This document shows positions 1,950 to 63,850 of a stretch of 64,000 bases of DNA, piece after piece. Source of the DNA: Pohlia nutans (taxonomy: Eukaryota; Streptophyta; Bryopsida; Bryales; Mniaceae); NCBI GenBank assembly GCA_022496805.1, contig CM040101.1:8992501-9056500 (forward strand). Direction: 5' to 3'. A program made the position numbers and the translations under genes. The first letter of the stretch is position 1. Each line of letters opens with the position of its first letter. Under the pieces are notes generated by a model. That model was not told where the DNA came from. It was given only the letters and a program-made list of their open reading frames with translations, and made no database searches.

Positions 1950-2592
1950 CGAACCTAAACCCTAAACACCCTAAACTTTAAAACTTTAAAAACTTTAACC
2001 CTTAAGCGTGCAAGGAGCCTTGTGGGGCCATGCTTGATTGTTTTTCACTCAAACGCTGATTTTCACCTAGTCCTTAATTTCAAACGAAAATGGTCCTAAC
2101 TAAGAAAGTGTTGGAGGTACCTTCTTCTTTCTAGTCCAATTTATCGTTCTTCAAAATTGTGAAAACTGCAATTTTTATAGCACTTTAATGCTCAAAACCC
2201 TAAAATTTCAACATACACTGCAGAAAATGTTTTTTTACCGAATTTCTTTTTTATGTAAGCTCAAGAAGCATGCCACCTACACTTTGTTGTTCATCACTAT
2301 TATTTACATTTTTCCCAGAAAGTTCATACTATTCTAAGATTTTTGTAATTACTATGATTTTTACAAGAAAAATACTTTGAAAAATCTTATAAAACTTTTT
2401 TTTATTAAAATAATTATGGAAAAAATCTAGGTAAAATTGGTTTAACAATACCTTATATGAGAAAAATACCAAAAAATATAATATATTTAAAAATGTGAGG
2501 AATTGATGAGGTTTGACCGGGTAATTGTAGTGTGGACGCTTAAGGGTTAAACCCTAAACCCTAAAAACCTTAAAGCCTAAACCCTAAACTGG
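1950..2592. repeat. Telomere-like CCCTAAA tract split by a transposon
   Basis: Degenerate CCCTAAA/CTTTAAA units run from about 1950 to 1994 and resume from 2547 to 2592 (ACCCTAAACCCTAAAAACC and similar). The TTAA-ended element at 1995-2550 sits between them, so it seems to have inserted into a short interstitial telomere-like tract just downstream of a gene's stop codon. Confidence 0.55.
1995..2550. mobile_element. TTAA-flanked inverted-repeat element, piggyBac-like MITE (copy 1)
   Basis: It begins TTAA CCCTTAAGCGTGCAAGG and ends with the inverse, GTGGACGCTTAAGGGTTAA, with TTAA on both sides. The inner right end (ACTACAATTACCCGGTCAAA when reversed) is shared with the copy at 16074-16646. There is no ORF of note. 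The exact TTAA plus CCC terminus is the piggyBac superfamily signature; that assignment is inference. Confidence 0.7.
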
Positions 2593-2801
2593 CTCCAGTT
2601 ATTGCTCTCCCTTCTTATGATGGAACTAATGCAGTGAAACCATTTTGACGGTGAGTTTGGTGGTGAATGAGGAGATTCAGTTGTGTAGAATCAGTAAAAA
2701 AAATTGCAAATGTATTATTACTGTGGACCTCGACAAAATTTACGATGCACAATGTACCTAGGGTTGTCAATATGAAGCAGGTTTGGATCATTGGGTGTAG
2801 A

Positions 2802-2921
2802 CACTAGTACAATAGGTGGCACTGTTGAGGGAGGTGCCCAGGCAAGTGATGTGGCCCTGCGTGAAACTCGGCAACACTTGCTTGGGCACCTCCCTAGGTA
2901 GTGTCACCTTTTTTACTAGTG
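2802..2921. mobile_element. CACTA-type micro-MITE (120 bp)
   Basis: Ends are CACTAGTACAATAGGTGGCA and the inverse (GTGTCACCTTTTTTACTAGTG). The flanks are AGA and AAA, an imperfect 3 bp duplication. It is a sister of the 11672-11790 and 30982-31101 elements. The whole sequence is close to palindromic. Confidence 0.75.
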
Positions 2922-3048
2922 AAACAACATACAAGGCCTTTGTCATGTTAAGGTTGGAAAAATTAAAATTTTGACAGGAATGTCTTGCAAATATGGTCAA
3001 ATATTTTAAGAACATGCTCGAATATTTTGATATCGGGTGGGCGGGAGG

Positions 3049-3286
3049 TTAACCCCAGAAGGGCCAAGGATTCATGGTTTTGAAATGACAAATTCAATTG
3101 ACCATATTGTGAAAATCATAATTTATATGGGACCAAATTTTATATCATTGGAATCATTGAAGAATATTGTATATGTTGGTGAAAAACCAGTAAATTTAAA
3201 CAAAAAGGACTCCACATAGAACTTACTCAAAAATGATAAAACAAACATGAGACCCAATTTGGTCTTCTTGGTCCCTCAGGGGTTAA
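3049..3286. mobile_element. TTAA-flanked piggyBac-like MITE (copy 2)
   Basis: TTAA CCCCAGAAGGGCCAAGG at the left and TTGGTCCCTCAGGGGTTAA at the right. It is an inverted relative of the copies at 37623-37848 and 63452-63552, sharing the 'GAGACCCAATTTGG' block and the 'CATAGAACTTACTCAAAA' block. It is non-coding. Confidence 0.7.
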
Positions 3287-3522
3287 TTGGACGAACAAAT
3301 TGAATCAGATGCCGTTGAGCAGCTTGTTGGGCGCCGTGACAGTACCTTATTAGTGTTAAATCTTCTTTAAGTGTAAATTTTCAATGTAATAAAGCTCTTG
3401 TGAAACCGATTGAAACTGTAATATATACGAGACGAATTATTCTGTCACCATTGTCACAAGAAGTGCATACAAATGTGATAATAAGGAGTTTGGACAAGTG
3501 TAGGAGGGGTGTAAACGTCTAA

Positions 3523-6095: not shown

Positions 6096-6101
6096 CCACT
6101 C

Positions 6102-6745: not shown

Positions 6746-6919
6746 GCCCTCCCACCAGCTCATTCGTGTGAAATGCATAAATGTCATAAATTTTGCACCA
6801 TTCATTGTCCAACTTATCATAGTGTTGTCTTGAGACTATGGTTCAACTTGAACCATTGCATGAGACCCGTTCATTGAGTTGGGCCTAATTTGCGTTGCAG
6901 GTGGAGGCGATTTAATTTA

Positions 6920-7820
6920 ATGATGCCGAGGCGTACAGAGGAATGGGATAAGTGGTTCAAAGATTTGGGTGTGCCTCCGGGTTTAAAGACTAGGAGAGTG
7001 GAATGTATGTATTGTCTGAAGAAGTTCCAATACCGAGCTGATAGGATGCTTTTCCATTTGGACTACAGAGATGGACAAAACTCAGCGGATGTTGGAGCAT
7101 GCCCCAAAGTTTCACCAAATATCAGGGCACTTTTTGCTTCTTGTGGAGGATTACTTCCCGACCCTTTCGAAATTATTGATAATGTCGGTAATCAGGAGCC
7201 TCAAATTGGAGAACTAGTACTCCCTAAGCTTGATCATGTTATGGCAGAGGGTACTGAAGTAGCGAATGCTAACCCTCCATTGTTTTCGTCGCAAAATTCT
7301 ACTCCTGGTGGAATTTTCCCTCCGAGCGTACATGTTCGAGCTAGTTCTATAGGAAGGGGTCTTCGTCAATTATCTATGCAAGAGGGACTACAGTCATTTG
7401 TAAAGTTGACTTTGGATAGAATTTGGTCAACGGCGTTCTATGAAGCCAACATCCCTTTTAACTTGGTGAAACATCCGTCTTTCGTCAACGCTGTTAAACA
7501 AACTGCAGCAGTGAAATTGACGTACAAACCTCCTTCATACTACACTATGCAAACGTCTTTGTTGAAGGCTAGACGGGTACAACTAGAAGTTGAGGTCAAT
7601 GCTAAAACAAAAGACTCCATACGCAAGTACGGTGTAACGGTTTGTTCAGATGGATGGGACAATGTTCAGAATCGGCCCCTTTTGAATGTACTTATGTGTT
7701 GCCCTGCCGGTGATACATTTTTCGGATCTATTGATACGACGGGCAATAAAAAGGATGCAGCGTATATTGTTGAACAAATGTCCGTATATATCAATAGAGT
7801 AGGTCCCACCAATGTTGTGC
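6920..7820 (+). pseudogene. DUF659 / hAT-transposase-like fragment with N-terminal zinc-finger-like region
   Basis: The frame opens at Met-Met-Pro (about 6920) as MMPRRTEEWDKWFKDLGVPP, then a CMYC pair and downstream H/C residues resembling a degenerate BED finger (about residues 30-60). At about residues 230-300 it has VTVCSDGWDNVQNRPLLNVL and TTGNKKDAAYIVEQM, the characteristic DUF659 block of plant hAT-derived proteins. It stops being protein-like after VVQVCTE (about 7830), where the CCGACTGCCC array begins, so it lacks the catalytic remainder and the hAT dimerisation region. It is a fragment captured in the 5628-11648 element. Confidence 0.7.
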
Positions 7821-7829
7821 AAGTCTGCA

Positions 7830-8040
7830 CCGAATGCCTATTCCGACTGTCCCAATCCGATGGCCTGGATTCGTCTGCCCCACCCGACGGCCTGGATCCG
7901 TCTGCCGTGTTCCGACTGCCCTAATCTCGTTTGCCATGATCCGACGGCCCTGCGAGGACTGCCCTAAACCCGACTGTCGCAATCCGACGACCTGTGCCGA
8001 CTGCCGCAGGCCGACTACCCAAATCCTAATCCGCGAGCCG
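7830..8040. repeat. CCGACTGCCC-type array (between cargo segments)
   Basis: Units such as CCGACTGTCCCAATCCGATG, CCGTCTGCCGTGTTCCGACT and GCCGACTGCCGCAGGCCGAC. It directly truncates the DUF659-like fragment and precedes the kinase-like pseudogene. Confidence 0.65.
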
Positions 8041-8988
8041 CCTCTATATATTGACGGTCGCCTCTCATTTAAACTTGCCAGTCTCAACCACTCCTGCAAG
8101 TAACCCTTAACCAATCATGCGTGAGCAGTTTTTGTTTGGGTTTCCGAGGTGGTAAGATTTTGGGTTTTTCAAGAGGGGAGATTTTTGAATTTTAAATTAA
8201 AATATGGAAAGGAGCAGTGGATTCAAGCAACCTCCTAAGAGGCAACGGAGCAGTGGACATAGCTCAATGTCTACACCATCTGTTGGGGACTAAAGCCAGG
8301 GAATGCACCACATGGCAGGTATATTGGTAGGCGTGCAGGACCTAGACTTTTCTTCCCCCGCGAGTGCTTCCATTGGTACTGGGCACATGGGCCCACCCCA
8401 AAGCATAGAAGTATTAGAGGGAGTAGCTCTCAAGCGCAGAGTGCCTCGCTGTCAGGTTCTACTTTTGGACACTCGGGAAAGAAAAGGAGGCACATGACAA
8501 CGGAGGAGAGGTCTAACCGGCCCGAAACCCCTTCAAAGGAGTGCCTCAAATATGTTCAAGACTGTGGCTTGTAGTTCTATAGGAAGAAATCCAAGGAGTT
8601 TTTGGAGACCAAGTACTTGCACCACGGAGTGCATGGCCTCGCGCAAGTAGTTGAGGACATGAAGGTGCATTTAGGAGAGGCCGTCATACACGATCCAATT
8701 CATTCCGATGCAACCCATCTTAAGGGTTATGGATCGTGGTTGAGTAGTCAGGTGCAGCAAGTTGTGTACAACACAACGCAGTGGTATGATGCATTAAACC
8801 GAGACGCATCAGGGTTATCGGATCCCACTGGAGAGCCATGCGAGGAGTTAGGCAAGCTTATTTGGTTGAAGAATTACGCGAAGCGGCTAAAAGAGAGTTC
8901 GGAACGTCTACCTCCATGGGCCGACAAGTTGCTAGTGGGCCATCTTTCTTCGCAGGGTCGGATCGGAATCATGTGGATCCCGAGGTCA

Positions 8989-9129
8989 CACTAGTAGGAT
9001 TTTGGTCCTTTATAACTAGTCCTTTGTGACTTACATGGTCCTTTGTGACTCAATTCTTTAGAAAAGAAGTCGTTTTGGACCATTTAAGTCACAAAAGACC
9101 AGTTTTAAAGGATCAAAATCCTATTAGTG
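8989..9129. mobile_element. CACTA-type micro-MITE inside the kinase-like pseudogene
   Basis: CACTAGTAGGATTTTGGTCC at the left, inverse ending CAAAATCCTATTAGTG at the right, with a perfect 3 bp duplication TCA (8986-8988 and 9130-9132). Almost the whole 141 bp folds on itself. It interrupts coding sequence, so it postdates the gene capture. Confidence 0.85.
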
Positions 9130-9660
9130 TCATCAGAAATTGTGAGCAAAGGCTATCAACAATTCGAGGGGGCGTATGGTAAGGTGCGGCAGGTATCAAT
9201 TCATAATTTTGCACCGATTCTGAAGCATATGCTTTTCGCTGAGAAGACGAGCAAGATTGCCAAGAAAGACAAAACACGGGCAAGAAAAGAACTTTCTATT
9301 GAGGCCCTAGTCAATCCCGTGGACCACCCGAGAATGATAAAATTCTTTGCGTTATCAACGGAGAACATGTCAGCATTCACCATATGGTAGAATGGAAATT
9401 CATTGGAGTCCGTGACTCGGATTGAATCGAGCTATGACAACAATACACATCTGAAAGTATTGTTTGGGTTGTGTGGGATGGATATAGAGATCCGTTAGAA
9501 GATTGTAGCATACCGTGGGAAGCAGGCTTACCTAGCTTGGGCCTTGCTAAACATCATAGATGTGTTACACAAGAGCGGTGTGCAGCACAACGATTTGAGC
9601 AAACCCAACATCCTTCTACATTTTCCACCGGAGTTACATGAAGATGTGTACATTGGAGTG

Positions 9661-9964
9661 TGTGACTGGGGCATGGCGTCTTGGACCGGTGAAGAGCCTA
9701 CTTCACTATATTGGGCGAGAAATGAGGAGGACCTAAATGAGTATCGATGGTGGGTTGCACCAGAATTGTGGTATCTTCTTCCCAAGGAAGTTGATGGGAA
9801 AGTTGTTTTCCCTGTGACTGGGGCATGGCGTCTTGGACCGGTGAAGAGCCTACTTCACTATATTGGGCGAGAAATGAGGAGGACCTAAATGAGTATCGAT
9901 GGTGGGTTGCACCAGAATTGTGGTATCTTCTTCCCAAGGAAGTTGATGGGAAAGTTGTTTTCCC
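9661..9964 (+). repeat. 152 bp direct tandem duplication in the kinase-like segment
   Basis: The unit starting TGTGACTGGGGCATGGCGTC at 9661 recurs without visible differences at 9813 and ends with AAAGTTGTTTTCCCTG. 152 is not a multiple of three, so it shifts the frame after the DWG/APE block. The identity of the two copies implies a recent event or an assembly artefact. Confidence 0.85.
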
Positions 9965-10395
9965 TGGTACTACCCCCCAAAAGCATACTATGAAATCAGA
10001 GGCATATGCAGCGGGGAAGCTCGCAAAATGCATATATCGGCGTGACTGCGCCTCACCGATGTTTAAAGGAATTTCCCATAACCTCTCCAAGTGGGAATCA
10101 TGTTTAGAAGGCCTTACGCAGGAAAATCCAAAAGACCGTTGGACCGTGGTCCATGCTGTGAACACATTGAAAGGGCAGCCATACAATTTTGAAATCCCAA
10201 CCCAGTGTTACTATTACAATATATAGTTCATAGTTTTTTCCCATAGTCCAATCTTGGATCATAGAAGTTTGCATTATTTCGAATTTTACAGTGTAAGGCA
10301 ATTTCAACTATAGTTTTTCCATATGTAAATAAAGAATGTTTCTAGAATTTGCGTCTTGTGCATGTTGCATCCATGTTTGGAATCTTCATTTGTAG

Positions 10396-10892
10396 TTAAT
10401 CCATAAATGCTTAGAGCCCACTCCAAATTCGCCAGTTTTGCAAAGATGCATTATAAAATGCAACTAAGAGGGATATTTTGAACTTGATGTATGAATAAAA
10501 GTTGTACATTATGAATTTCTGATTCTATGCATACGGTTAGATCTATGATTGCTATAATCAATATTTTTGAATAAAATTTGAAACTAAAATTCAAAATTCT
10601 TTTGTAGTTTGATTACAAATAAGATATTGACAATTTGTAGATGAAATTTGTTGTGATTGGTTTAAATGTAATACTCTAAGTGTAGTGATTTTTGGAGGTC
10701 TTTTTGTTTCTTAAAAGTTTCACAAATCATCCCCTTTCTAATCGAATCACACATTCATGAAGCTAACTTTCCTTAGAACCTAGAGGAAAAAAATCCAAAC
10801 TACAAAATTGCATGACGAATGAGATAACATGGATGACATCTGTACATTGTCTAAAAACATGACGCCCAAGGCCCCTAGCAGTTAGGGGTTAA
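10396..10892. mobile_element. TTAA-flanked piggyBac-like MITE (copy 3, reverse orientation)
   Basis: It is bounded by TTAA at 10396-10399 and 10889-10892 (TAGGGGTTAA). Its body is the reverse complement of the family at 12922, 16074, 24454 and 63549, sharing TTTGCAAAGATGCATTATAA and GTAATACTCTAAGTGTAGTG blocks. The left terminus is degraded. Confidence 0.7.
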
Positions 10893-11671: not shown

Positions 11672-11790
11672 CACTAGTAGAAAAGGTGCATGTATCGAGG
11701 CAGATGCCTATGCAAATGGGCAGCACTTGCTTAGAACTGGACAACATTGGCTCGACTTCCACCTCGGCATAGGCACCTTTTCTACTAGTG
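11672..11790. mobile_element. CACTA-type micro-MITE (119 bp)
   Basis: CACTAGTAGAAAAGGTGCAT at the left and the inverse GGCACCTTTTCTACTAGTG at the right. Perfect 3 bp duplication AAA on both sides. Close relative of 2802-2921 and 30982-31101, lying just outside the composite element. Confidence 0.85.
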
Positions 11791-12921: not shown

Positions 12922-13495
12922 TTAACTCCTAAACGTCCAACCGTCCAGATTTTGGACGATGAACAGATTTGAACTCCATTTTTTCATTCATTATGCACTT
13001 TTTGCACTGTGAATTTTTTACTAAAATTTTTATAGGAAGTTAATTTCATGCATGTGTGATCCGATTAGAAAGGGGATGATTTGTGAAAAAATTATGCCTC
13101 CTTTCATGCCACATTGTTCCACCAATTTTTTTGAAGATTTTAGTGTAAAAGTGTTTTTGAAAAAGTCAACTCATAAAATCAAGCAACAAAAAATCTTCAA
13201 AAATCACTACACTTAGAGTATTACATTTCAACCCATCACAACAAATTTCATCCATAGATTGTCAATATCTTGTTTGTAATTGAATTACAAAATATTTTTG
13301 AAATTCAAGTTTCAGATTTTATACAAAAATATTGGTGATAGCAATCCTAGATCTAACTGTATAGATAGAATTTCAAATTTATGATGTAGAACTTTAATTC
13401 ATACATCAAGTTCAAAAATATCCCTCTTAGTTGCATTTTAGAATGCATCTTTGCAAAACTGCCAAATCTAGAAGGGGTGAGGATGTTTAGGGGTA
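12922..13495. mobile_element. TTAA-flanked piggyBac-like MITE (copy 4)
   Basis: Left end TTAA CTCCTAAACGTCCAACCG. The right end is GGATGTTTAGGGGTAAA, where the terminal TTAA is mutated. The body shares CACTACACTTAGAGTATTAC, TTTCAACCCATCACAACAAA and AAACTGCCAAAT blocks with copies at 16074, 24454 and 63549. Confidence 0.7.
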
Positions 13496-13705
13496 AATAT
13501 CCCGCATTGAACTTTGTGGGGGAGAAAACTAATTAAGCAATCCGTCTGATTTCTTTTGTCTTGAGAATGGACTTGTCCTACAACAAAAATGCTGATCCTG
13601 CATACTCCAGGTTTGATAAGGACCTCATGCACATGAAGATTTTCCACTGTGCATGACCACTCAAGCCTTCCTTCGAAATGATGTTTGGCTAGTTGCAGAG
13701 ATCTA

Positions 13706-14287
13706 TTAACCCTTAAAGGACCACGAGGCCACCTCGCGGCTTTTGGAACTAGAAAGTGAGGAAATTCGAGTTGTTGGGCCATGAATTGTAAGGTGAGCAA
13801 CAAAGAGACCCTAGTTCTTTTCGAGAGCTGAATCCGTGGGTACTTCTTGATCAAAATTTCATGAAGTGTGCGATTTTTGATGATTTTTTGAGCTGCAAGG
13901 AGGCTATTTGGGAGTCACTTGAGACCCTCATATCTTTCTCCTCACACCTCCAAATTATGTGAAATTTTTTGCACATGTTCAAAATGATGATCATTATGCA
14001 TGGTAGAAATTTCAGAATTTTTGGAGCACTTTTGATCAATCCGATTTCAGCATATGTACAAAATACCCCGTACGAGTTCCATCAATCTTCTCAACGGTGG
14101 CATTTTCTCAAAAATTGTGCGATTTTGTTGATCTTTTTTTCATACAAAAGCTATGTAAGTCTTCTTTAATTTCAACGGTGCTGATCGTCAAAATTAACCC
14201 ACACCAATGAGGAATTGAGCTTGTTATAAGAGTTAGTCAAGAAAACAAGAGCTAAGCTAAAAACCACCCCGGTCCTTTAGGGGTTAA
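13706..14287. mobile_element. TTAA-flanked piggyBac-like MITE (copy 5)
   Basis: TTAA CCCTTAAAGGACCACGAGG at the left and CCCCGGTCCTTTAGGGGTTAA at the right. The interior differs from the 12922-type copies, so only the termini are shared. No transposase. Confidence 0.7.
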
Positions 14288-14552: not shown

Positions 14553-15721
14553 TTAACCCCTAAACTACCAAGTGTCCTAACTCGGACATTTAGAGAACTG
14601 GGTAGGTTTCGATGAACACATTTTTAATCAAATTTTGGAAGAAATTTAATAGTGAATTTCTCAATGTGCCATGGAACTGGGGATTCTTCGAATTCCGACA
14701 CCGTATGTGGAAGTTATGAGGGGAAATGTGTTTTTTTCGGGAGAAAAGGTAGTGCGGCAGTAGAAAAATGGTTGAATTTTGGGGTGGGGTGGCGTTGGGT
14801 GGGGTGGGGTGGGGTGGGGTGGGGGGGAGGGGACAACAAGAAGGGCGGAGTGTGGAAAATGGGGTGGATTGTGGGAGGCACAGCAAATTGCCCCCATTAA
14901 AAATTTAAAAAATATTATTTTTAATTTTTTTAAATATTATTTCTAATTGAAAATTATTATTTTCAATTAATAATTAATAATTAATAATTATAATTTATTA
15001 ATTATAATTATAATTAAAAAAAACTTTTTTAAAAAATCGTCCAATAAAGGATTGCCACGTGGCAGTCCACTTTGAGAGTTAGTGGGGTCATGAACATTGG
15101 AATGGGTTGGGTGAGGTGGCACTTCGATTCCCTTCCCCCACCCTTTATTTCCCCCCTAACCCCAAAAATTCTTAGAAAATATGTTATATGTCTTTTAAAA
15201 CTTGGAGATTTAATTGTTTTTCAATTTTCTTTTTGCCATTCTATAGAGGGTGGAATCGGTACTTAATGCTTCACCACTTGGATTCGTATTCTAAATAATG
15301 AAAGTCTAGAAACAAAAAGTCTTTTCTAAACTTTTAAACCCCCAACAAGTGCAGGGTGTTCTTCAACATCCTAAACATCTCCAAACGCAACGAAAATTGG
15401 TACACAACTAAGTAACATCATATAGAATGTAAAAGTGAAGTGCGACAGGTTTTGGTAATGAAGTTTTTTTGATGTACCCACGGTCAAACGCATTTGAAAT
15501 TTTCGGGCAGGTGTTTTTTTCCATCAAACGCAGTTATCTTGCAATCCATTTGGTCAAATTCAATGAAATTTGTTGTAGACGTTTTTTAAGTAGTTTAAGA
15601 CAAGATCTTACAATTAGAAGGTTAAAAAATAACATTTTTTGGGAATTTTTGCATGGGGGAGTAAAAATGGCAACATTGGAGTGTTTTTGGAGGAAAAACG
15701 CTCCGGTCCTTTAGAGGTTAA
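14553..15721. mobile_element. TTAA-flanked piggyBac-like element (copy 6, 1.17 kb)
   Basis: TTAA CCCCTAAACTACCAAGTG at the left and ACGCTCCGGTCCTTTAGAGGTTAA at the right. It is the inverted twin of 27616-28830 over most of its length (CCACGTGGCAGTCC, TTCCATCAAACGCAGTTATC and GGTGGGGTGG tract). A 100 bp AATT-rich core lies at 14905-15025. Gly/Pro-rich ORFs here come from GGTGGG repeats and are not genes. Confidence 0.75.
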
Positions 15722-16073: not shown

Positions 16074-16646
16074 TTAGCCCTTAAACATCTACACTACAAT
16101 TACCTGGTCAAACCTCATCCATTCCTCACATTTTAAAGATTTTTACTAAAGATTTTTTACTAAAGATTTTATAGTAAGTTAGCTTCATGCATGTGGGAAC
16201 CAATTTGAAAGAGGGTGATTTGTGAAATTTGTATGCCTCATTTCATATTGCAGTGATTCACCAAAAAATTCTAAGATCTTACTTCAAAATAGTTCAAAAG
16301 TGCTTTTGAAAAAGTCAACTCATAAAATGAAGCAACCAAACAAATCTCCAAAAATCACAACATTTAGAGTACTACATTTCAACCCATCACAACAAATTTC
16401 ATCCACAAGTTGTCAATATCTTATTCATAATCGAATTACAAAATATTTTTAAATTTTGAGTTTCAAAATTTATATATAATATTGGTGATAGCAATCATAG
16501 ATCTAACCATATGGATAGAATCTAAAATTTGTAACGTACAACTTTTATTTATACATCAAGTTCAAAATATTTCTATTGGTTGCATTTTATAATGCATCTT
16601 TGTAATTCTCCAAGTCTGGAGAAGGTTGTAGGCATTTAGGGGTTAA
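16074..16646. mobile_element. TTAA-flanked piggyBac-like MITE (copy 7)
   Basis: The left terminus is TTAG CCCTTAAACATC (one change from TTAA) and the right is GGCATTTAGGGGTTAA. The body matches copies 12922 and 24454. The leftmost inner block (CACTACAATTACCTGGTCAA) matches the inverse right end of the copy at 1995. Confidence 0.7.
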
Positions 16647-18445: not shown

Positions 18446-19482
18446 GTACAGTGGGGTCCAACATGGAATGGCGTTTTTGGTTTCGCAGTGAGAAATGTTT
18501 TAGTACTGCCAACTTTGGAAGCCTCCCGAGAGCTCAAAAATTGGTATCTTACCACGAAATTTTTACCAGAGACTCATCTTTAAGTTAATTATATGAATGC
18601 CAAATTTCAAGGCCGAAATATTCAGCCAAAAAAAGTTATTCAGAATCTACCAACATTGGTAGCTGTGGAATTTTTTTCACTGCTGCCAACTTTGACAGCC
18701 TCCCGAGAATGGAAAAAAAATTTCTTACTTTGGTTTTTTTTTGGTAGAAACCAATTTGTGTTAGTAATATATGGTAAAAATCTCAAGTCTAAAAGATTAG
18801 TAAAAAAAAAGATATTCCCAATCTACCAACATGTGTAGTTGTGGGAAACAATGGGGGAAACCATTTCATTGCTACCAACTTTGACTACTATGTTGGTAGA
18901 TTAGGAATAATTTCTTTTTGGTGAATCTTTTGGCCTTGAAATTTGGCATACATATAATTCACTTAAAGATATTTCTTTGGTAAAACTTTCGTGGTAAAAT
19001 ACCAATTTCTGAGCTCTCGGGAGGCTTTCAAAGTTGGCAGTATTCAAAGTTGGTAGGAATGAAATGGTTTCCCCATTGTATCCCACAACTACACATGTTG
19101 GTAGATTGGGAATATCTTTTTTTTTACTAATATTTTAGACTTGAGATTTTTACCATATATTAATAACACAAATTGGTTTCTACCAAAAAAAAACCAAAGT
19201 AAGGAAAAAAAATTTCCATTCTCGAGAGGCTGTCAAAGTTGGCAGCAGTGAAACAATTACCACAGCTACCAATGTTGGTAGATTCTGAATAACTTTTTTT
19301 GGGTGAATCTTTCGGCCTTGAAATTTGGCATTCATATAATTAACTTAAAGATGAGTCTCTGGTAAAAATTTCGTGGTAAGATACCAATTTTTGAGCTCTC
19401 GGGAGGCTTCCAAAGTTGGCAGTACTAAAACATTTCTCACTGCGAAACCAAAAACGCCATTCCATGTTGGACCCCACTGTAC
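18446..19482. repeat. ~1.04 kb near-perfect hairpin (giant inverted repeat)
   Basis: The left arm starts GTACAGTGGGGTCCAACATG and the right arm ends CATGTTGGACCCCACTGTAC. Arms of about 430 bp remain highly similar throughout, around a loop of roughly 150 bp centred near 18960. The loop contains a third, partial copy of the arm unit (GAGCTCTCGGGAGGCTTTCA). Each arm is itself an internal duplication around CCAACTTTGnnAGCCTCCCGAGA. ORFs inside are shadows. It could be a foldback transposon or a small-RNA-generating locus. Confidence 0.85.
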
Positions 19483-19637: not shown

Positions 19638-19953
19638 GAGCATCTCCACTAGCACTCTGGATACTGCTCTAACTATGGAAAAATGGATGAGACTTGGTTG
19701 GTGAACAATTTATTTGGTCCGTGACACTGGATAATCCACTAAAAATTAGGGCCCTCAAAATCACTCTTGCTAGTGTATCTCCTCTTTTTAATTGCAGATC
19801 ATAATTGCACAATCCATGCGTGGTGACCTGTGAGTAGCTCACTTACTATTTTCAAGAGTCTAATTCAGTGATGTTGGTAGGGGAACTACATAGTGAGGTC
19901 TGAATTTTTGGATGACCTTCAGAGTGCAATCCAAAGTGCTAGTGGAGATGCTC
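19638..19953. mobile_element. TTA-flanked GAGCATCTCC MITE (train member 1)
   Basis: GAGCATCTCCACTAGCACTC at the left and GTGCTAGTGGAGATGCTC at the right, TTA on both sides. No ORF. The right TTA (19954-19956) is also the left TTA of the next element. Confidence 0.75.
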
Positions 19954-19956: not shown

Positions 19957-20328
19957 GAGCATTTGCACTCGTGCATGCTAAAACTCACTTGTTAAAATTA
20001 TTCATCTAGTTTTCGGTGTTTGTGACCTTCATTAATTCAATGTGTTTTCATCCTCATGTTTCAAAAAATAAAATAAAATAATTCATCTAACTTATATTTG
20101 ACAAGCCCTTCAGCTTACACTTTCTCCTTCACATACCAAATGTGTACATTAAATAGTTAATGAACCAATCACAAGTAGAATGTGGGATATATATTCAACA
20201 AAACTTAGATTTGAAAGGTCATTGCTTATCATGATATGATTGATTGAGGCTATTTGAAAGGGACCACAACATTTTTCATTTGGTTTTTCAATGTGGCAAA
20301 CCTTTCCAAGGCATGGGTACGGATGCTC
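19957..20328. mobile_element. TTA-flanked GAGCATTTGC MITE (train member 2)
   Basis: GAGCATTTGCACTCGTGCAT at the left and GCATGGGTACGGATGCTC at the right. It shares the TTA at 19954-19956 with the previous element and the TTA at 20329-20331 with the next. Confidence 0.7.
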
Positions 20329-20331
20329 TTA

Positions 20332-24453: not shown

Positions 24454-25030
24454 TTAACCCCCTAAACGTCCAACCGTTTAGAAAGTGGACGATGTACAAA
24501 ATCAAACACAGTTGTCTCATCCGTCATTGACTTTTTGCAGAGTGAATATTTTACGGGAAGTTAGCTTCATGCATATGTGGTCCAATTAGAAAGGGGACGA
24601 TTTGTGAAATTTCTATGCCTCACTTCATGTTGTAGTCGGATTCACCCAAAATTTCAAAGATTTCAGTGTAAAAGTGCTTTTAAAAAAGTCAACTCATCAA
24701 ATTAAGCAACCAAAAAATCTCCAAAAATCACTATATTTAGAGTATTACATTTCAACCCATGACAACAAATTTCATGTACAAATTTCATGTACAAAATCTT
24801 ATTCATAATCAAATTACAAAAGAATTTTCAATTTCAAATTTCAAATTTTATACAAAATATTGGTGATAGAAATCGTAGATCTAACCGTATGGGTAAAATC
24901 TAAAATTTATAATGTACAACTTTTATTCATACATGAAGTTCCAAAATATCCTTCTAGGTTGCATTTTATGATGCATCTTTGCAAAATTGCCGAATTGATT
25001 TGGAGAGGGGTGAGGACGTTTAGAGGTTAA
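24454..25030. mobile_element. TTAA-flanked piggyBac-like MITE (copy 10)
   Basis: TTAA CCCCCTAAACGTCCAACCG at the left and GAGGACGTTTAGAGGTTAA at the right. Best-preserved full-length member of the 12922/16074/63549 subfamily. Its right TTAA is the left TTAA of copy 11. Confidence 0.8.
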
Positions 25031-30981: not shown

Positions 30982-31101
30982 CACTAGTAGAAAAGGTGGC
31001 GCTCCCCATGGAGATGCCCAGACAAAATCATTGTGCATGCTTGGAATTGGGCACCACATGCATGGGCAACTCTCTCGGTGATACCACCTTTTCTACTAGT
31101 G
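30982..31101. mobile_element. CACTA-type micro-MITE (120 bp)
   Basis: CACTAGTAGAAAAGGTGGCG at the left and GGTGATACCACCTTTTCTACTAGTG (inverse) at the right. Perfect TTT duplication on both sides. Sister of 11672-11790. Confidence 0.85.
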
Positions 31102-41407: not shown

Positions 41408-43981
41408 CTATGAAAATTGAGGGTCGCTGTGGGTTTTCTTAGTACTAGGATGGCCAACTTTGTCTCCCATTGGTACTTTGGGGCGTCGCCGTTTCATGAC
41501 AACTGCACAATCGCTGCAGTACCACTTGCCTTTCGGCCGCTCCTTAATCCCCACACAGTCGAAGTGGAACCACTCGATTTTGCACTGCCAAATTTCAATT
41601 CCAGATGAGCACAAGCACTCAACAAAACAAAGCCATCTCGCTAAAAATCCTAGTATGCTACTCGAAGCTCATGGATATCAAATATATCATTGGCATAAAA
41701 TGGTAGTTTTTGATGCTTAAGATTCTAAAAAACAAGGGCTACGCGATGCTACGCACTAACGTCGACGAAATGAAAGTCATAATATATCATGCCCTTTGGA
41801 ATTTACTTTCACTTGTAAGCAATTCAGACAAGGCTTCATTTTGTTCATTTTGTTCATTGTTGTACCTATTTATTGTTCCTTTTCATAACACAATAATATC
41901 CTTTCAATAATATCTTTTCAATAGTATAATATTATTACTGAAAGGATATTATTGAAAGGTTGAGACCACGACGCCAACAGTTTTCCTTTACAATTTTTCT
42001 TGGGTAAAACCATCTCCAAGTACTCGTTGAAGGAACTACAGGTATTAGGCTGTGATACGCCAGAAGTAAGCTGACCTCACAACAAGAGTCATATTTGGTC
42101 AAAGAAAGAGCCTGTGTCGCGCTAAGAAATAACAATTTCAGCTTCCTACCAGTCTATAAAATGGAGAGGGATATAAAGCTCTTACCTCAGAATTATCACA
42201 AGCAATCATCTCTCCGTAAGAAACCTGCCCGCAGTAACAATATGTTGGTTCGTTCGGATCAACAGGAAGATCCAGCTCTACGTTTGCAACATTTGTTGGT
42301 ATATTCTGCCCTCTGTACATCAGCCAACACATCACAGCAATTGAGGCGCAATGAACTTCAAACTTGCATGTAATAATAACTGAATGGTTTGGAATGAGCT
42401 TAATACGCTGCACACCAAAACCTCAGGTAAAATGAAAATCTGGTTCCTGAGGACCTTGAAGCAAAAATCCCTATCCCAATAAAATGAATGGTTTGACTGA
42501 CCCGTAAGAAATGAGAGGAATAAGATACATGCAGTACTCCATGAGAGCAGTACACTACATAACCAGAGGCCTTAAACAGATCAAATCAGCAGGTACACAG
42601 GTAATAAATAGCACATACTTTCTGCGACCAAATCTAGTTCCGTCTCCACCATCTCTTCCAAGCATCCCACCCGCACCCTCTGACCGTGGCTCTGCTGAAA
42701 GCAGAGTTCCTCCAGCAGCCTCTCTATCTGCATGTTCGGAACACATCCAGGTAAGCATTGAGAGAGGAAATAATCAGACACCTTAGGAAAAGAAATCCTG
42801 TAGGTTGTGTAAAATACAATGAATGAACCTGGAAGGTCGACATTCGGTAAGTGAAGAAGAATAAATCTTAAACATAAGGTAAGCTTGACTATTTAACAAA
42901 AGCACTTCCTGCTTGCTCAAAAGGTCTAAACCTAAACAAAATACTTTAATGGTAGACACCTTTGAATTGATGACTCGTTCCAATGGAGAATATCACTCAC
43001 CTCTTCTGAGTTCTTCTTCAAACTTTTTCAGGTCTTTATCTAGCCGTTGAATATGCCCGTCAATCTGCAAGACGAATGCTCATCCGTTAGTATGATTATA
43101 ATCGATTGGCGCTTCAGTGGCATTCCAGTGAAGAGTTTTCAGAAGTCGAATTGTTAAAGTGCACTCAAGGTCAGCACATATGAATGACATCAACACCACG
43201 ATGACTAATAAAAGGTGAACATCCCAAAGAAACATCCAAGAAAATATGTGTACCAGATCGTAAGTCTGTACAGCTAAAAATACTTTTTCCTCCGCAATTG
43301 CAAGGCATGACTTGTGAATGTCAAGAACTCCGTTGGTATGCTGGATAGCAACAGCCTCAGGAGTAGTAGTACCAGATTCTCTCACTTTTCCCACCTCATC
43401 TAGCCCCTTTGCACATTGCACCTGCATGCCTTTCTGTAGATCTGCATCATAGAAACCTCAAACTGTAAGGATCGCCTGATTCTACATCTCTGTCTCAACA
43501 CCTTCAGTAACTCGGAAAAATCTTAGCAGGTATGTAACGCAGCCCCGCTTAACCCTTAAAGGACATGGCTTTCCTGATTCCACACCCAAAATCTCTTTTA
43601 AACTTCACTTTAAGCATGATTCTCTTTTTGATTTACTTTGGTTCTATTCTAAAGAAGTATAGATGTCTTAAATATGTTTGTTTTGGGATTTAAAAAACCT
43701 CATTTGGTTCAACAGAGTAGAAGTTGTGAGCAAGATTCTCCCGGAAAAAAAAGAAAGGGTTAAGACTCAAACAACTATCATGTTCTACACGGAAATAGTT
43801 CATCAAAGAGCTTAAGCGTGTAAAGTTAAACCAAGATTACAAAGGTAACTCAGTAAATTGTCAGTCCGCAACATGATGCTTTGAATAAATAATATGCGAG
43901 AATTGCTAAATCCCCACCTTGAAGTTTTTTATCCAACTCTCCAAGCTGCTGATAGTTTTTTGTCAGCTCAGTTGGAAGTGT
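41408..43981 (-). CDS. ING-family PHD finger protein (histone H3K4me3 reader); first exon not found
   Basis: ING proteins are nuclear subunits of histone acetyltransferase or deacetylase complexes and bind H3K4me3. Minus-strand exons: 43918-43981, 43254-43441, 43001-43064, 42619-42727, 42186-42312, 41408-41584; together 729 nt, all in phase, 242 residues plus stop. The N-terminal ING coiled coil is shown by [44 protein letters not shown] and [21 protein letters not shown] Gly-rich basic linker ([15 protein letters not shown]) follows. The PHD finger is [20 protein letters not shown] then [23 protein letters not shown] and [10 protein letters not shown], a complete Cys4-His-Cys3 set, then a basic tail. 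The translation start should lie in 43985-45480 but I could not place it. A MULE is inserted just upstream. Two repeats and a TTAA element sit in its introns. Confidence 0.9.
41735..42028. repeat. Dispersed repeat, copy A, in the last ING intron
   Basis: It begins GGGCTACGCGATGCTACGCA and includes CATGCCCTTTGGAATTTACT, ACCTATTTATTGTTCCTTTT and a CTTTCAATAATAT tract, ending at GTAAAACCATCTCCAAGTAC. It is the reverse complement of copy B at 44139-44517. Confidence 0.75.
43549..43763. mobile_element. TTAA-flanked piggyBac-like MITE (copy 15) in an ING intron
   Basis: TTAA CCCTTAAAGGACATGGC at the left and GAAAGGGTTAA at the right. It lies within the intron between the exons at 43254-43441 and 43918-43981. 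The right terminus is shortened to AAAGGG. Confidence 0.55.
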
Positions 43982-45493
43982 CTGTACACCTGTCCAGTTC
44001 ACCACAGAAACATCATGTCATTATTCAAATGAAATGTCCTGTAAACAGATAGGGCTTATGATCGCCTATTCAAACATCTTAAAATCGTTGCAGGTAGAAG
44101 TATTTATGATCCCAACTTTTACGACAAGGTTAACTCCGTCTCGGAGTACTCCGAGAGGGTTTTACCCAAGAAAACTTAAAAGGAATATGGTCGCCGTGGC
44201 CATGGTTATCGGCCTTTCAATAATATCCTTTCAATAGTATTAATATCCTTTCAATAGTATTAATATTCTTTCAATAATATTTCGTTGTGATACTACTGAA
44301 AGGATATTATTAAGGATATTATTGTGTTATGAAAAAGAACAATAAATAGGTACAATAAATAGATATGTACAATAAATAGGTACAATAATGAATAAAATGA
44401 GCAAAATGAAACCTTATTTGAATTGCTTACAAGTAGAAGTAAATTCCAAAGGGCATGATAGGTTATGAGTTATGACTTTCATTTTGTCGACTTTGTGAGT
44501 AGCATTGCGTAGCCCTAGTAAATAAACTATACTGAACGTTTTTCTTTTTCTCGATTATCAAGCTCATGCATAACGGTCCAGATTACTTAACTCTCTATTC
44601 GTCTGGTGTAAAATCAACACTCCGACAAGACTGTACGTCTGATCACATGTACGTCTAACAATCAACAACAAAAAAACATTCTTGGTGTATTTATATTTCT
44701 TGAACAAGTCTACTGCCTCTAAACAACTTGATCAATAGTCACACCGAGTAAGTACACAAAAAGTAGTATAGGTTAGAGATTATACTCGAAACGAAATCTT
44801 CTAAGTAAGTCATATTGGAGTCGAATCCACAAAGTTCAGCACCTCGATTTGCTGCTCAAACGCCGACTGATCCGTCCCCACCAGGTCCAATTCGGCCTTG
44901 TGAACTAGCTTCCAACATACAAAAAATGAAAAAAACACGGGCGTTTCAGCGCACCGAAGGAGCATCAACTAAGCTTCTCTGTACTGCTTTTTCCATTGCA
45001 AAAAGCAAGAACCACGCATCGCCCATGAAACCCTAAAACGGCAAGAAAGGCTCCACCAGAAGCTCAGCACCGCCTGCTACAATTACATCGAGGAGAACTG
45101 CAGAAACAACTAAAATTCGCTCCAGTTACTCGAATTAGATTACAAAAAAAGCTACAGCTCACACAAGAGGTGCTGAAACCCTAACTCTCAAGTCGCAACT
45201 CACTCCATATCCAATAGAAATTTCACGCAAGAGCGCATGAGCCAATATTACAATTCATTCACTGACCCTAATCGTACCGAAAATGGCTCAAAAAGTGTTC
45301 TGAAAGATCATCGTCAAGAGTGAAAAAGTACGCCGAGAACTCCTTGAAAATGGCGCCTGACGAACAAGAGGGAGAGGAGGAAGGTACCCGGTGACCTGAG
45401 TGTGTTTGGTAGGTTGGAAATGGGAAGGTCGGTGGGGAAAAAGGCGCTAGATTTGAAAATTTGAATAGGGTTGTTTCCCCTTTTTCCTCAGCA
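43982..45493. other. 5' intron/leader region of the ING gene
   Basis: An in-phase exon joining the TLPTELTK exon should lie here. I see no open ATG-containing stretch with a phase-0 donor that I can defend. The AAACCCTA (telo-box-like) words near 45025 and 45175 would suit a promoter or leader. Repeat copy B occupies 44139-44517. Confidence 0.35.
44139..44517. repeat. Dispersed repeat, copy B, upstream part of the ING locus
   Basis: It is the reverse complement of 41735-42028: starts CGGAGTACTCCGAGAGGGTT, passes through several CTTTCAATAATATC units and ends GTAGCATTGCGTAGCCC. CTTTCAATA and TACAATAAATAG units are tandemly amplified here relative to copy A. Confidence 0.75.
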
Positions 45494-45502
45494 ATTGATT
45501 AA

Positions 45503-45790
45503 GCAGGACGTTAAAGTGGTCATTCGAACTTCGCGGCCAATGACGTGGCTGCGACGTGGCCATGGCCCGGCTCTACCCCCGCGCCCGCCCCCGCGCCCGT
45601 GCGGCCTCAACCCCGCGCCCGGCCGGCCTCGTCCTGCAGGACCCCACGCCCCGAAACGGCTAGGATAGGACGCGCACGCCCGGCGCCACCTTCGCCGCCC
45701 GACAACGACGATTTCGTCCACGCCACCTCCGTCGCCCGACGACGACCATTTCGTCCGCCACTAATTAGGGCACGGCGCTGCTGTTGTACG
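45503..45790 (+). repeat. Left terminal inverted repeat of the MULE
   Basis: It runs from GCAGGACGTTAAAG to about GCACGGCGCTGCTGTTGTAC. Compared with the right arm it carries an extra CCGCGCCCGT-rich segment near 45585-45615. It probably also holds the promoter of the + strand gene. Confidence 0.85.
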
Positions 45791-55329: not shown

Positions 55330-55621
55330 CAAAGTGGTTAGCGGCGGCGGATCTGGATTTAAATCGCGTACAACGGCAGCGCCGTGCCCTAATTAGTGGC
55401 GGACAAAATGGTCGTCGTCGGGCGACGGAGGTGGCGCGGACGAAATGGTCGTCGTCGGGCGGCGGAGGTGGCGCCGGGCGCGCGCGCGTCCTGCCTTGGC
55501 CGTTTCGGGGCGCGGGGTCCTGCAGGACGAGGCCGGCCGGGCGCGGGGGCAGAGCCGGGCATGGCCACGTCGCAATCACGTCATCGGCCGCGAAGTTCGA
55601 ATGACCACTTTAACGTCTTGC
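55330..55621 (-). repeat. Right terminal inverted repeat of the MULE
   Basis: Inverse of the left arm. The GACGACGACCATTTCGTCCG block (on the minus strand) occurs in tandem. CCTAAACCCTAAACCCTAAA lies immediately inside (55257-55280), upstream of the transposase start, and may act as a telo-box promoter element. Confidence 0.85.
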
Positions 55622-55630
55622 ATTGATTAA

Positions 55631-56490
55631 TTTCAATTTGTTTCAATGAATTTAAGAGGGTTTGAATTCGATGCTGACGTCACCGTACGTCTGGATTGTT
55701 CCAAACAGAGGATGTGATATTAAAGAAAGTGATATTAGAGAGATTTGGCATACTAGAGAAGATCCTTCATAACGCTTTCAAGTTCCAAAGTAGAATCTCC
55801 AAATGCACCCACTTCGACCCTTGCTCCCTTGCACCTAACTTATTTCACCTAACTTATTTCAAGGAAATGTATTTCTAGTAATAAAAAACTAGGCAAAATA
55901 CATGGTAGTTTGCGTTCATTTTCCGAATAACTTTAAAGTTTGTTTTTTAAGAGCATTTCACTAGTGGTTCTTATTCTTAAAATTCTTGTTAAAACTTGAA
56001 TTGTAAATTTGACTTCTTGCTAGCCAAACCATTCATGGTAAGTAGTTTTCTATTGAATATTGACAACGAGGCTTTTCTTGGTTGGCAAAATTTGAATTTG
56101 GGTTGGTATACAAAATTCAAAATTAGAAATACCAGCCTCATCGGTGAGATTGCTCTTAGTAGAAGTAATATTGTTGGATTTAGAATGCTAAAACAAAAAG
56201 ACTGTACTTTGGTAGCAACTTCCAAAATTATTTTGAAAATAAAATTTTAAATTTAGAACCAACACCTTTACTCAATCTATATTTTTCAGGTTTGTTTCGA
56301 AGCATACAAAAGGACTTCAAACAATTAGATAGCCGATTGCCATCATAAATGAAGTTGTAAACAAGGTTTTATAAATATGTATACTCTTTGTTTACATCTA
56401 CGATGTGAAAAACATTGAAATGAACAATTTTAAAATAAAAAATTCAAAACACTTGAATACAAGCCAAATCAAACAAAATTGTAGTCTACG
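55631..56490. other. AT-rich intergenic stretch, no gene seen
   Basis: A weak inverted pair (TTTTGAAAATAAAATTT region against AATTGTAAATTTGACTTC) occurs, but no clear transposon ends and no protein-like ORF. Confidence 0.4.
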
Positions 56491-56500
56491 GATAGAAAAG

Positions 56501-60946: not shown

Positions 60947-61360
60947 GGTAGAAGCACCTATAAGCGATAATTTAAGTTTTCTAGCCTACATGAAACAAGA
61001 GCAGAAGGTGGATAGTATTTTTCCTTCATAGGAAAATAGAAATTGTGATGAATGCAATACTTTCTATAATTTTAGTCTAAAAAATGAAATTTCTACAAAT
61101 TTTCAAAGTGAAAAGTTAATCATCACCCAAAACCGATAACTAGACTAAACCATAATTTAAGACCAAATTTGAGAACATATGATTTGACAAACTAGTTCAA
61201 GTTGCTTCTTGGAATTGACTAATATAAGTGCAAGAAGTTGATTGGTTGATAGAAACTCCTTCACAAGTGGCATTGAATTTGGATGAGTTTGGATGTTAAC
61301 CATTATGGATCAGTCTACATGTAGGTTTTGGGTGCATTGTTGGTTATGGGTGCTTCTACC
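60947..61360. mobile_element. GGTAGAAGCACC inverted-repeat MITE
   Basis: AAGGTAGAAGCACCTATAA at the left and TTATGGGTGCTTCTACCTT at the right. Flanks are TTA-like but do not give an unambiguous duplication. The interior is AT-rich without ORFs. Confidence 0.55.
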
Positions 61361-62913
61361 TTAGACCAACATTATTATGTTACATTATGTTTAGAGAAAA
61401 AAAGAAACTAAAATGATTACAACATTTTCATGCAACCACTCTCATTATTACTAATAGGTTCCTAAGACAATCAATGAGTTTCCATACCTTTGATTCTTTT
61501 AAGAATCTTCAATTGCCATTTATACCAATATTATGCGTACAACTGTATTTATTTTTAAAATATATGAATGTCAACTTTTTACAATATTCTTCAACTGTGA
61601 TTACATTGTACATCAATTTTTTTTTATAGAATTGTACTACATCTTTCATGTTTGCACTTTTACACTTTGTTCAATTGTGCTCAAGGTACAACTTTTTGTG
61701 TGAAAATCTAAACTCAAATATTGGCACTCAGTGTGTCGTACTCAAATCAAATAATTTCACTTGGTCTCTATTCCCATTGAATTTCCCTATGTTCCGTTGA
61801 AATTCTCTAATTCCAGTAAAAATTTCAACCACACATTGGCAAGACGCTCCCAAAGGATAGAAAGTATACTTGTGATACATAAACAAGAAACTGAATGGAC
61901 AGGTTGGCAGTAGGTGGTTACTGTATAGTACAGTACGATACGAGCCATGATCCTCTTATCTAAGGTGACAATAGTCACTTCAGCATTTCAGCACATGATT
62001 GGTGGAGGCTGTAAGTTTGGTTTCCCATCACTTGTCGAAAAAATCTTACTCATTTCCAAGGGAAGGACTCACAAAAAAGTGATGGAAACTGAACGATTTT
62101 TTCCACCTTATGCATATTATAAATATTCTGGAACCAACTCATTCAATCTCATCCTGCTTCATTTGTTGGCTATAGGGAAGGGAAGCAGTATATCAACACA
62201 AGCTACCTCTATAGTGAAGTGATATGCACAGTGTTTGTTGCTACACAAAAACTGATAATAAAAGGAACCCACTCAACTAACTTATGAAATATTGACCGAC
62301 TGAAGGTAGTTGACACAGGACGCACTCTGTAGAAGTAAAACGTTCAATGTGATAGAAGGAATATGATTCATTTAGAGCAAGCCTAGCAGTTGCAAAGAAA
62401 ATATGTCCGTCAAGCATTAATTTGAGGGCCATTTTTAACTTAGAGGAATGTTATACAAGAAGTACCCCAACAACATTCATGGAGCGAACACCAAGGCAAC
62501 TTATAAATCGAAGATTTTATGAAAATAACTTGATGACCTTGAAGCACGGTCCAGTGAATAGTCTTCAAGCTCGTTATTTAATTGTTGATTGAGCATCTTT
62601 GCTTGCTTGGTGTGAGAAATTTGCTTGTGCCAAAGCTTCTGTAGATGGCGGGGAAACCTCAAGTTTTGACTCCAAAAACTATATTTTAGCATTAGTGGGT
62701 AGTTGCTGGGCCAAACTTCGAAGCAAATGGAGATAACTACACCAAATCTTGGCGTTGGTCCCTCCAAAACACATGCTGCTGGGCATGCTCTTATACTGCA
62801 ATACCAAAGGCTACTCTATACCTGCGCTATACTAGTGAACTACACAAGGAAGCTTCCTAACTGAAGTCAAACAGACCTGTAGCTGAGAGTATCTCGTCCA
62901 ACATGAAATCCCC
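61361..62913. other. Intergenic stretch downstream of the CAD-like gene, no gene seen
   Basis: Only short ORFs without recognisable family. The region just below 62914 is presumably the 3' untranslated part of the CAD-like gene. Confidence 0.45.
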
Positions 62914-63113
62914 TCACTCCGGCTTCAAGGAGTTCTCAACGTCGATGACAAAACGGTATCGAACATCACTCTTCATCATTCGCTCTATCGCCTTGTTGAC
63001 GTAATCGATGTTGATAGTCTCGATCATTGGCGTCACTCCCTTTTCTCCACAAAACTCCAACATCTTCTGAATCTCCTGAATCCCTCCCGCTGCACTTCCC
63101 GTAATAACCTTCC
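62914..63113 (-). CDS. Cinnamyl-alcohol-dehydrogenase-like (zinc MDR) protein, last exon only
   Basis: The exon opens after a TTTGCAG acceptor (minus strand) and encodes [53 protein letters not shown] then [12 protein letters not shown] and TGA. This is the C-terminal end of plant CAD-type NADPH-dependent alcohol dehydrogenases: G-S-x-x-G-G closing the cofactor domain, then [22 protein letters not shown]. CADs reduce hydroxycinnamaldehydes to monolignols or related alcohols, in the cytosol. The exon starts in phase, needing one base from the previous exon. Upstream exons lie beyond base 64000, because 63114-64000 shows only intron with two TTAA elements. Whether it is a true lignin CAD or a broader paralogue cannot be told from this piece. 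Confidence 0.9.
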
Positions 63114-63451
63114 CTGCAAAATGAATAAAAGAATCATCACATCATCATCTGCACCTTGCATAAATCACTGGAATATTGTCTCCACCAGTGTCACCGGAAA
63201 ACGAAATATTAGGGGTGTCCGAGTGCAAGCTTGTGAAGCAACCCCTACATGTTGGTATGCTACGAACAATGCACACTCACAATCGCCAGCCTCTCACCAA
63301 AACAGCTTCACAAGAATTGAAATCACGGGGACTTCAAGAAGATAGGGACCACGTCCTCACTCCGGCGAAAGCTGGAGCAAATACCCTTACTCTGACAACC
63401 CCTATTCTTGTTTTCACATTCTTTCAATTGCGTTTTTTTTCTTTTCTGCTT

Positions 63452-63552
63452 TTAACCCCTGAAGAACCAAGGAGTCCAAATTGGGCCTCATGTTTTTTTA
63501 GCAGTTTCGAGTAGGTCCTATGTAGTCTTCTCCTTGGTCCTTTAGGGGTTAA
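63452..63552. mobile_element. TTAA-flanked piggyBac-like MITE (copy 16, 101 bp deletion form)
   Basis: TTAA CCCCTGAAGAACCAAGGAG at the left and CTCCTTGGTCCTTTAGGGGTTAA at the right. It keeps only the termini of the 3049/37623 subfamily (TTGGGCCTCATGTTTTTT, GAGTAGGTCCTATGTAG). It lies in the CAD-like intron. Confidence 0.75.
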
Positions 63553-63850
63553 CCTCCAAAGGACCAAGCGTCCATATTTAGGACGGTGTACAGAAACAAT
63601 CACATCACTACACTTAGAGTATTACATTTCAACCAATTGCAACAAATTTTATCCACAGATTGTCAATATCTTATGCGTAATCCAATTACAAAAGAATTTT
63701 GAATTTTAAGTTTCAAATTTTATACAGAAATATTGGTGATACCAATCATAATGTACAACTTTTATTTATAAGTTCCCTCTTAGTTGCATTTTACAAGACA
63801 ATTTTGAAACTCTCCAGATCTGGAGAGGGGTGAGGACGTTTAAGGGTTAA
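63549..63850. mobile_element. TTAA-flanked piggyBac-like MITE (copy 17, internal deletion)
   Basis: TTAA CCTCCAAAGGACCAAGCGTC at the left and GGACGTTTAAGGGTTAA at the right. It shares TTAA 63549-63552 with copy 16. The body matches the right half of copies 12922 and 24454 (CACTACACTTAGAGTATTAC). Confidence 0.75.

Follow-up and report, generated by a model that had tools for sequence, protein, structure and literature searches.

Probable non-autonomous piggyBac-type elements in a moss, with an internal palindrome that keeps its position and varies in sequence

Introduction

Miniature inverted-repeat transposable elements (MITEs) related to piggyBac are reportedly found in corals (PMC2872659). 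Full-length animal piggyBac elements, as described in the relevant part of a study that set MITEs aside, sit at TTAA and have CCC tips (CCCTT being the most conserved start) and short repeats, with rare TTAG or TAAA duplications (PMC10813416). For piggyBac of Trichoplusia ni (T. ni), the section of the cryo-EM work used here reports that a dimer of the cysteine-rich C-terminal domain (CRD) binds bp 17–33 of the left end (PMC7351741). The solved structures that we found represent two transposases, one from an insect and the other from a bat. Here we analyze a 64,000-nucleotide stretch of the moss Pohlia nutans (assembly GCA_022496805.1, contig CM040101.1, forward-strand positions 8,992,501–9,056,500; hereafter the window) that holds 17 TTAA-flanked, CCC-tipped elements. 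Judged by the anatomy of their DNA, these are quite probably non-autonomous piggyBac-type transposons, which would be moved by a piggyBac-type transposase not found in the 304 kb sampled.

The original prediction for this window held that piggyBac is not a standard part of land-plant genomes, which was too strong. The superfamily is named in land-plant lists, appearing among angiosperm MITE superfamilies (PMC10004981) and among superfamilies that a study found in every group it covered, land plants among them (PMC4438587), as well as for plants in general (PMC10794571) and for fern (PMC6890710). In the pertinent passages of three of these sources (PMC10004981, PMC10794571, PMC6890710) the entries are names in lists, and those passages describe no ends, empty sites or internal site. 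A literature search combining moss or bryophyte with piggyBac, which covered part of the literature, returned no title describing moss piggyBac elements among the matches listed; a moss genome paper that ranked high owed its match to the word "piggybacking".

Results

A family of TTAA-flanked elements

The motif TTAACCCYTAAAGG occurs exactly six times on the two strands of the window and not once in 10 dinucleotide shuffles; if as many as two mismatches are allowed, the count is 28 (shuffle mean 1.3, maximum 3). We placed 17 elements of 101–1229 bp, together covering 9,695 bp (15.1% of the window). They are listed here with two of their internal palindromes; element coordinates take in both flanking TTAA, and strand is given where assigned.

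1995–2550: element, family E; each end scores in the end matrix; TTAA on both sides, the right side adjoining a telomere-like CCCTAAA tract
3049–3286, + strand: element, family B; 76% identical to 37623–37848; TTAA on both sides
10396–10892, – strand: element, family A, a deleted and more mutated copy; 70–89% to other A copies
12922–13497, + strand: element, family A; TTAA on the left, TAAA on the right
12942–12958, + strand: internal palindrome CGTCC-N7-GGACG, element bp 17–33; 6/6 pairs
13706–14287: element; exact end motif at each end; TTAA on both sides
14553–15721, – strand: element, family D, 1.17 kb; 78% to 27616–28830, in opposite orientation
16074–16646, + strand: element with a family A body and a left end like that of 1995–2550; 70–83% to other A copies; TTAG on the left
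22116–22969: element; its end types are also found in sampled pieces L022 and L023
24175–24423: element with scored ends and TTAA flanks
24454–25030, + strand: element, family A, extra C at the left tip; 69–82% to other A copies; tandem member 1 of 3
25027–26255: element, family C (TTAACCYTTTAGTGCC ends); one TTAA common with each neighbor; similar ends in L011, L012 and L018
26252–26799, + strand: element, distant member of family A; 59–64% to A copies; tandem member 3 of 3
26272–26288, + strand: internal palindrome CGTCCATATAATGGACG, element bp 17–33; 6/6 pairs
27616–28830, + strand: element, family D, 1.2 kb; each end with a palindrome
37623–37848, – strand: element, family B; 76% to 3049–3286; amid COBRA-like coding stretches
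43549–43763: probable element; left end score 23.8; weak right end, GGGTTAA at 43757
63452–63552, – strand: element, a deleted family B copy of 101 bp; TTAA common with the next element
63549–63850, + strand: element with a family A body and a B-type left tip

The predicted family of TTAA-flanked, CCC-tipped elements is thus borne out, and so are its proposed subfamilies, which self-comparison reproduced: 10396/12922/16074/24454/63549 (family A) at 69–89% identity, 3049/37623/63452 (family B) at 75–77%, and the pair 14553/27616 (family D) at 78%. To family A we add 26252–26799 as a distant relative (59–64%). The least certain placement is 43549–43763, the 17th element, with a good left and a weak right end.

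A consensus of the termini, built as had been suggested, is dominated by TTAA followed by CCC. The matrix comprises 32 ends of 16 elements, omitting one extra C at the 24454 end; its four target columns read T 32/32, T 32/32, A 31/32 and A 31/32, and C occupies element positions 1, 2 and 3 in 31, 31 and 28 of the 32 ends, respectively. TTAA stands on 32 of the 34 element sides, the exceptions being TTAG at 16074 and TAAA to the right of 12922–13497, both of which belong to the rare variants that the cited part of the animal study gives (PMC10813416). Kolobok elements also duplicate TTAA, but according to the section of PMC9587614 used here they start with 5′-RR; their purine tips, set against CCC tips with C at each of positions 1 and 2 in 31/32 ends, leave a Kolobok origin exceedingly improbable.

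Between 6 and 13 of the first 13 element bases pair between the two ends (ungapped count, 16 elements), with at least 10 of 13 matching in 10/16 elements and the lowest value, 6, at 24454–25030, which carries the extra C. In the 16 elements examined, stop-free frames reach 121 codons at most, and a scan of Rfam at gathering scores gave no matches.

TTAA as the target, and spread beyond the window

Sampled DNA (the L-numbered pieces) included 200 kb taken at one end of contig C1 and 10 kb from each of contigs C2–C5, these five contigs being 41–52 Mb long. At scores of at least 15, we found 43 ends in C1 and 5, 7, 3 and 6 in C2, C3, C4 and C5, respectively, so that TTAA-CCC ends are present on all five chromosome-sized contigs sampled. 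Since the sampled places were not random, we give no copy number. An exact-motif scan of viral contigs gave one match, which had no partner within positions 1500–2483 of the viral piece L001 and which we took as coincidence.

Circularity was avoided by scoring the C1 ends solely on the 16 bases inside the TTAA. At scores of at least 14, TTAA precedes 26 of 38 such ends (a one-base variant precedes 7, CGAA 1 and other sequences 4); five shuffles yielded 16 passing sites, none of them preceded by TTAA. Ends scored without TTAA are mostly preceded by it, so the outer bases belong to a four-base target and do not stand there by chance. This bears on Tc1/mariner and PIF/Harbinger elements, whose TA or TWA target could by chance lie inside TTAA. 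A TA duplication there leaves the same filled and empty sequences, and Mariner-like elements are transcribed in the moss Physcomitrium patens, as the part of PMC7466625 used here reports. However, a TA target has no required neighbors and a 3-bp TWA target would let one outer base vary at one end, yet the outer T is present in 32/32 window ends and the inner A in 31/32. Neither target requires this outer T or the TTAA before 26/38 independent ends, and we regard both superfamilies as very unlikely sources.

In the window there are three junctions, and in L022 two, at which neighboring elements have one common TTAA. A second array with a single TTAA between neighbors lies at L022 2270–3144, like that at window 24454–26799. 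We considered special tandem targeting and rejected it: in a simulation, the expected number of such junctions for the window was 0.93 and the probability of three or more was 0.058, so chance suffices.

Empty sites

For 50 candidate end pairs (some mispaired), the flanks were joined with one TTAA, where long enough, and compared with the 304 kb. For five elements, all outside the window, paralogous repeats cross the joined junction, in 12 matches at 65–89% identity. The junction site is TTAA in six matches and a changed four-base site in the other six (TTAG, ATAA, TCAA, TCAA, ACAA and CCAA). The cleanest cases concern L018:742–1557, for which L023:9025–9228 and L004:1070–871 both show TTAA at 82% identity; further empty sites of this element are L018:1680–1877 (89%, TTAG) and window 20295–20126 (73%, ATAA). 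For L006:4059–4635, five places in L006 match (79% TTAA, 72% TTAA, 69% TCAA, 68% TCAA and 65% ACAA). The remaining three are window 19723–19897 for L021:2244–3253 (71%, TTAA), L004:3229–3311 for L004:3572–4118 (77%, TTAA) and L022:2293–2489 for L012:4630–5444 (75%, CCAA). A single four-base site at these empty places is the expectation for a TTAA duplication.

Several candidates were set aside. The comparison of window element 16074 with 20227–20331 was too weak; three junction matches from queries 24175, 24455 and 63452 proved to be a realigned own flank or a neighboring element; all seven matches of L006:8397–9245 were dropped, this element being inserted in a family A copy and mutated at both its sides, with empty copies reading TAAA; L009:4468–5049 has its junction gap in an A/T run; and L025:5736–6938 (60%) was misaligned. 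The element at 1995–2550 was kept out of the count for its telomere-like flank.

An internal palindrome at element bp 17–33

A dyad scan (5-bp arms, 7-bp spacer) covered every center from 20 to 149.5, 260 centers in all, in 97 ends (two low-scoring ones added by hand) reduced to 52 non-redundant ones; a stricter redundancy cut was also run. The best dyad is centered on bp 25, spanning bp 17–33, where 104 of 260 pairs match (permutation mean 67.2; none of 2000 permutations as high; rank 1 of 260). The same center ranks first under the stricter cut of all ends (85/220 pairs versus 56.6; 0/2000) and in the 43 non-redundant ends from outside the window (93/215 versus 55.4; 0/2000). Flanking DNA, used as a control, gives this center ranks 49 and 86. 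The search was prompted partly by the portion of the T. ni work already cited (PMC7351741); the scan itself gave the position independently of the published bp 17–33, an independence tempered in that the T. ni end layout is background knowledge.

Examples of the arms are CGTCC/GGACG, GCATCC/GGATG, AAGCCC/GGGCTT and TTGGCC/GGCCAA. Because they differ between families, the symmetry is kept while the sequence changes. Perfect palindromes with 6-bp arms, in a band around bp 25, occur at 18 of the 74 ends of 37 elements, compared with 2.4% elsewhere in a band of equal width, and three 1.2-kb elements, from families C and D, have one on both ends. A second perfect palindrome, centered about 52–55 bp into the element, is present at nine of the 74 ends (3.7% elsewhere), none of which also bears the bp 17–33 palindrome. 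Going by the T. ni end names, LE35 and RE63, the right-end repeat should lie 28 bp further in than that of the left end, close to bp 53. The palindrome at about 52–55 bp as a counterpart of the T. ni right-end repeat is suggestive only.

Some Sola elements use TTAA, and another superfamily with this target, most plausibly a Sola lineage, might merely resemble piggyBac. A repeat table for a fern lists Sola next to PiggyBac (PMC6890710), and Sola1–3 are MITE superfamilies in insects (PMC5199201), as far as the relevant parts of the two sources go. Both the CCC tips and the bp 17–33 palindrome agree with piggyBac, however, and the T. ni study, in the section used here, names piggyBac as the only one among enzymes of the same reaction pathway with precise TTAA targeting (PMC7351741). 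We therefore think a Sola origin quite unlikely.

Several probable recognition lineages

The left and right ends of an element agree beyond the common tip. In 30 elements, 107 of 120 letters agree at positions 5–8 (shuffled 89.6; 0/2000) and 93 of 120 at positions 9–12 (shuffled 61.0; 0/2000), with no clear difference from shuffled pairs at positions 1–4 (103/120 versus 98.3; 123/2000) or 13–16 (59/120 versus 50.8; 99/2000). A common tip followed by family-specific positions 5–12 points to several recognition lineages, not one. The original prediction of one terminal recognition system therefore calls for revision: positions 5–12 are matched within elements, and the palindrome varies by family.

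Two elements are mixed: 63549–63850 joins a B-type tip to an A-type body, and the left 70 bp of 16074 (family A) are 87% identical, over 71 positions, to the right end of 1995–2550 (2480–2550). Both speak for some exchange, and we conclude that there are probably several end-recognition lineages, with some crossing.

Search for a transposase

Searching translated DNA (tblastn) with T. ni piggyBac and piggyBat gave a best E value of 0.77 for the first 264 kb and of 0.89 for all 304 kb, and tblastn with a piggyBac protein set found nothing at E 0.01 in the 304 kb. A profile of piggyBac proteins of 550–670 aa plus the two queries had its best match in the 304 kb (E 0.25) inside 63549–63850, overlapping the palindrome. 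This match, "PYLGR...EYY", scored 9.1 bits, compared with no more than 7.5 across five shuffles, and was rejected because it is partly encoded by the palindrome and lies near the shuffled scores. As a positive control, the protein set without the two queries finds piggyBat at 4.8e-47 in a two-sequence file. In a protein search with piggyBac and piggyBat, 1371 of 7988 scored candidates passed; among the best 120 of the 1371, those named by organism are insects, which is uninformative for plants. The originally noted lack of a visible DDE_Tnp_1_7 transposase in the window holds, and extends to the 304 kb.

A plant superfamily not yet described, specific for TTAA, moved by an enzyme of its own and converged on target, tips and internal palindrome, would fit a transposase not found in 304 kb although elements occur on all five sampled contigs. 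Yet three features of one known system would then have to coincide, one of them at identical base pairs, and 304 kb is a small sample, since miniature elements commonly far outnumber their autonomous source; we judge this alternative unlikely. To the form in which such a superfamily, its enzyme other than DDE_Tnp_1_7, converged on piggyBac and radiated in mosses into lineages distinguished by their palindromes, we would give an outside chance.

Neighboring features

An interstitial telomere-like CCCTAAA tract (2548–2589) adjoins the right TTAA of 1995–2550, which seems to have landed in or beside it. Two COBRA-like coding stretches, one with a match to the COBRA C-terminal domain, flank 37623–37848. 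The COBRA-like gene (35442–38825, + strand) has moss relatives and a Pro/Val/Lys/Ala-rich repeat near its start; the closest named protein to its spliced product is from Ceratodon purpureus (59% over 71% of the query), followed by more from Ceratodon and Sphagnum, and assembly-derived proteins match at 76–81% over about a third of the query. The probable element 43549–43763 is enclosed by a 2.8-kb structure (41732–44519) with long diverged inverted ends (68% over ~390 positions), possibly a foldback or other long terminal inverted repeat element.

Elsewhere in the window, 6878–10226 (+ strand) holds what look like remains of a hAT-type transposase, with a match at 6878–7924 to DUF659, a domain linked to hAT; a perfect 152-bp tandem duplication lies downstream of this match (9661–9966). 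Three related inverted-repeat elements of ~120 bp (2802–2921, 11672–11790 and 30982–31101) start with CACTAGTA and end with TACTAGTG and, going by this motif, resemble CACTA-type mini-elements. Foldback-like nested inverted repeats occupy 18446–19482 (as long as 297 bp at 94%, and including several internal copies), and 45493–45790 and 55367–55632 form an inverted pair (81%, ~10 kb apart) with a similar 37-bp tandem repeat in each member.

Discussion

Like T. ni piggyBac (LE35, RE63), the moss elements have a TTAA target with its duplication, a CCC tip and a one-end palindrome at bp 17–33, along with a second palindrome, about 52–55 bp into the other end, near the RE63 position (family A, family C and one more). 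Unlike it, they occur in a different host kingdom, fall into several end families with varied arms, contain no internal gene and come with no transposase found. TTAA and CCC tips are likewise common to the full-length animal elements of the study that set MITEs aside, going by the part cited above (PMC10813416); the differences from animal piggyBac elements and MITEs are the moss host and a share of about 15% of the window.

Four observations weigh in favor of the piggyBac reading that was originally predicted, namely the TTAA target, the CCC tips, the single-site empty places and the palindrome at bp 17–33, this last being a feature known for T. ni piggyBac in particular. Several others weigh against it. 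No piggyBac transposase was found in the 304 kb. The window ends alone give a weak palindrome signal (43/120 pairs versus 31.3, 25/2000 permutations as high, rank 8; in the stricter set 40/105, 36/2000, rank 3), only 15 of 37 elements carry a perfect palindrome on at least one end, and the second palindrome comes from about three families. The share of C1 ends preceded by TTAA drops at looser scores, to 29/55 at scores of at least 12 and 31/90 at scores of at least 10 (1/51 and 1/173 in shuffles). Finally, the empty sites are paralogous, not orthologous, none derives from a window element and half are altered, and a 2-bp TA duplication within TTAA would yield identical sequence. Taken together, it is very likely that the elements work like piggyBac and likely that they are piggyBac, though this falls short of proof, as the defining enzyme was not found and the assignment rests on DNA anatomy.

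The T. ni structure suggests how the moss elements might move. A dimeric DDD transposase would hold the first 16 bp of both ends, while a dimer of the CRD would sit on the bp 17–33 palindrome of one end; cleavage of the ends would proceed by way of TTAA hairpins, and joining of the element to a new TTAA would duplicate that site. Several autonomous lineages that differ in palindrome specificity may each serve their own families. The best reading of our data would then be that this moss holds several lineages of non-autonomous piggyBac-type elements, each lineage having an internal binding site of its own.

What is surprising is how abundant these elements are in a moss, and that the internal dimer site varies from family to family without shifting its position. 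As a transposon tool that leaves no footprint, piggyBac is in wide use, and the moss end families, in which the dimer site is fixed in position and varied in sequence, offer a natural series for studying DNA recognition by the C-terminal domain and the evolution of end specificity. With them, it also becomes plausible that a footprint-free transposase could be obtained from a plant. More broadly, our data suggest that a sizeable share of plant DNA, here 15% of the window, can come from a superfamily whose known members are mainly those of animals.

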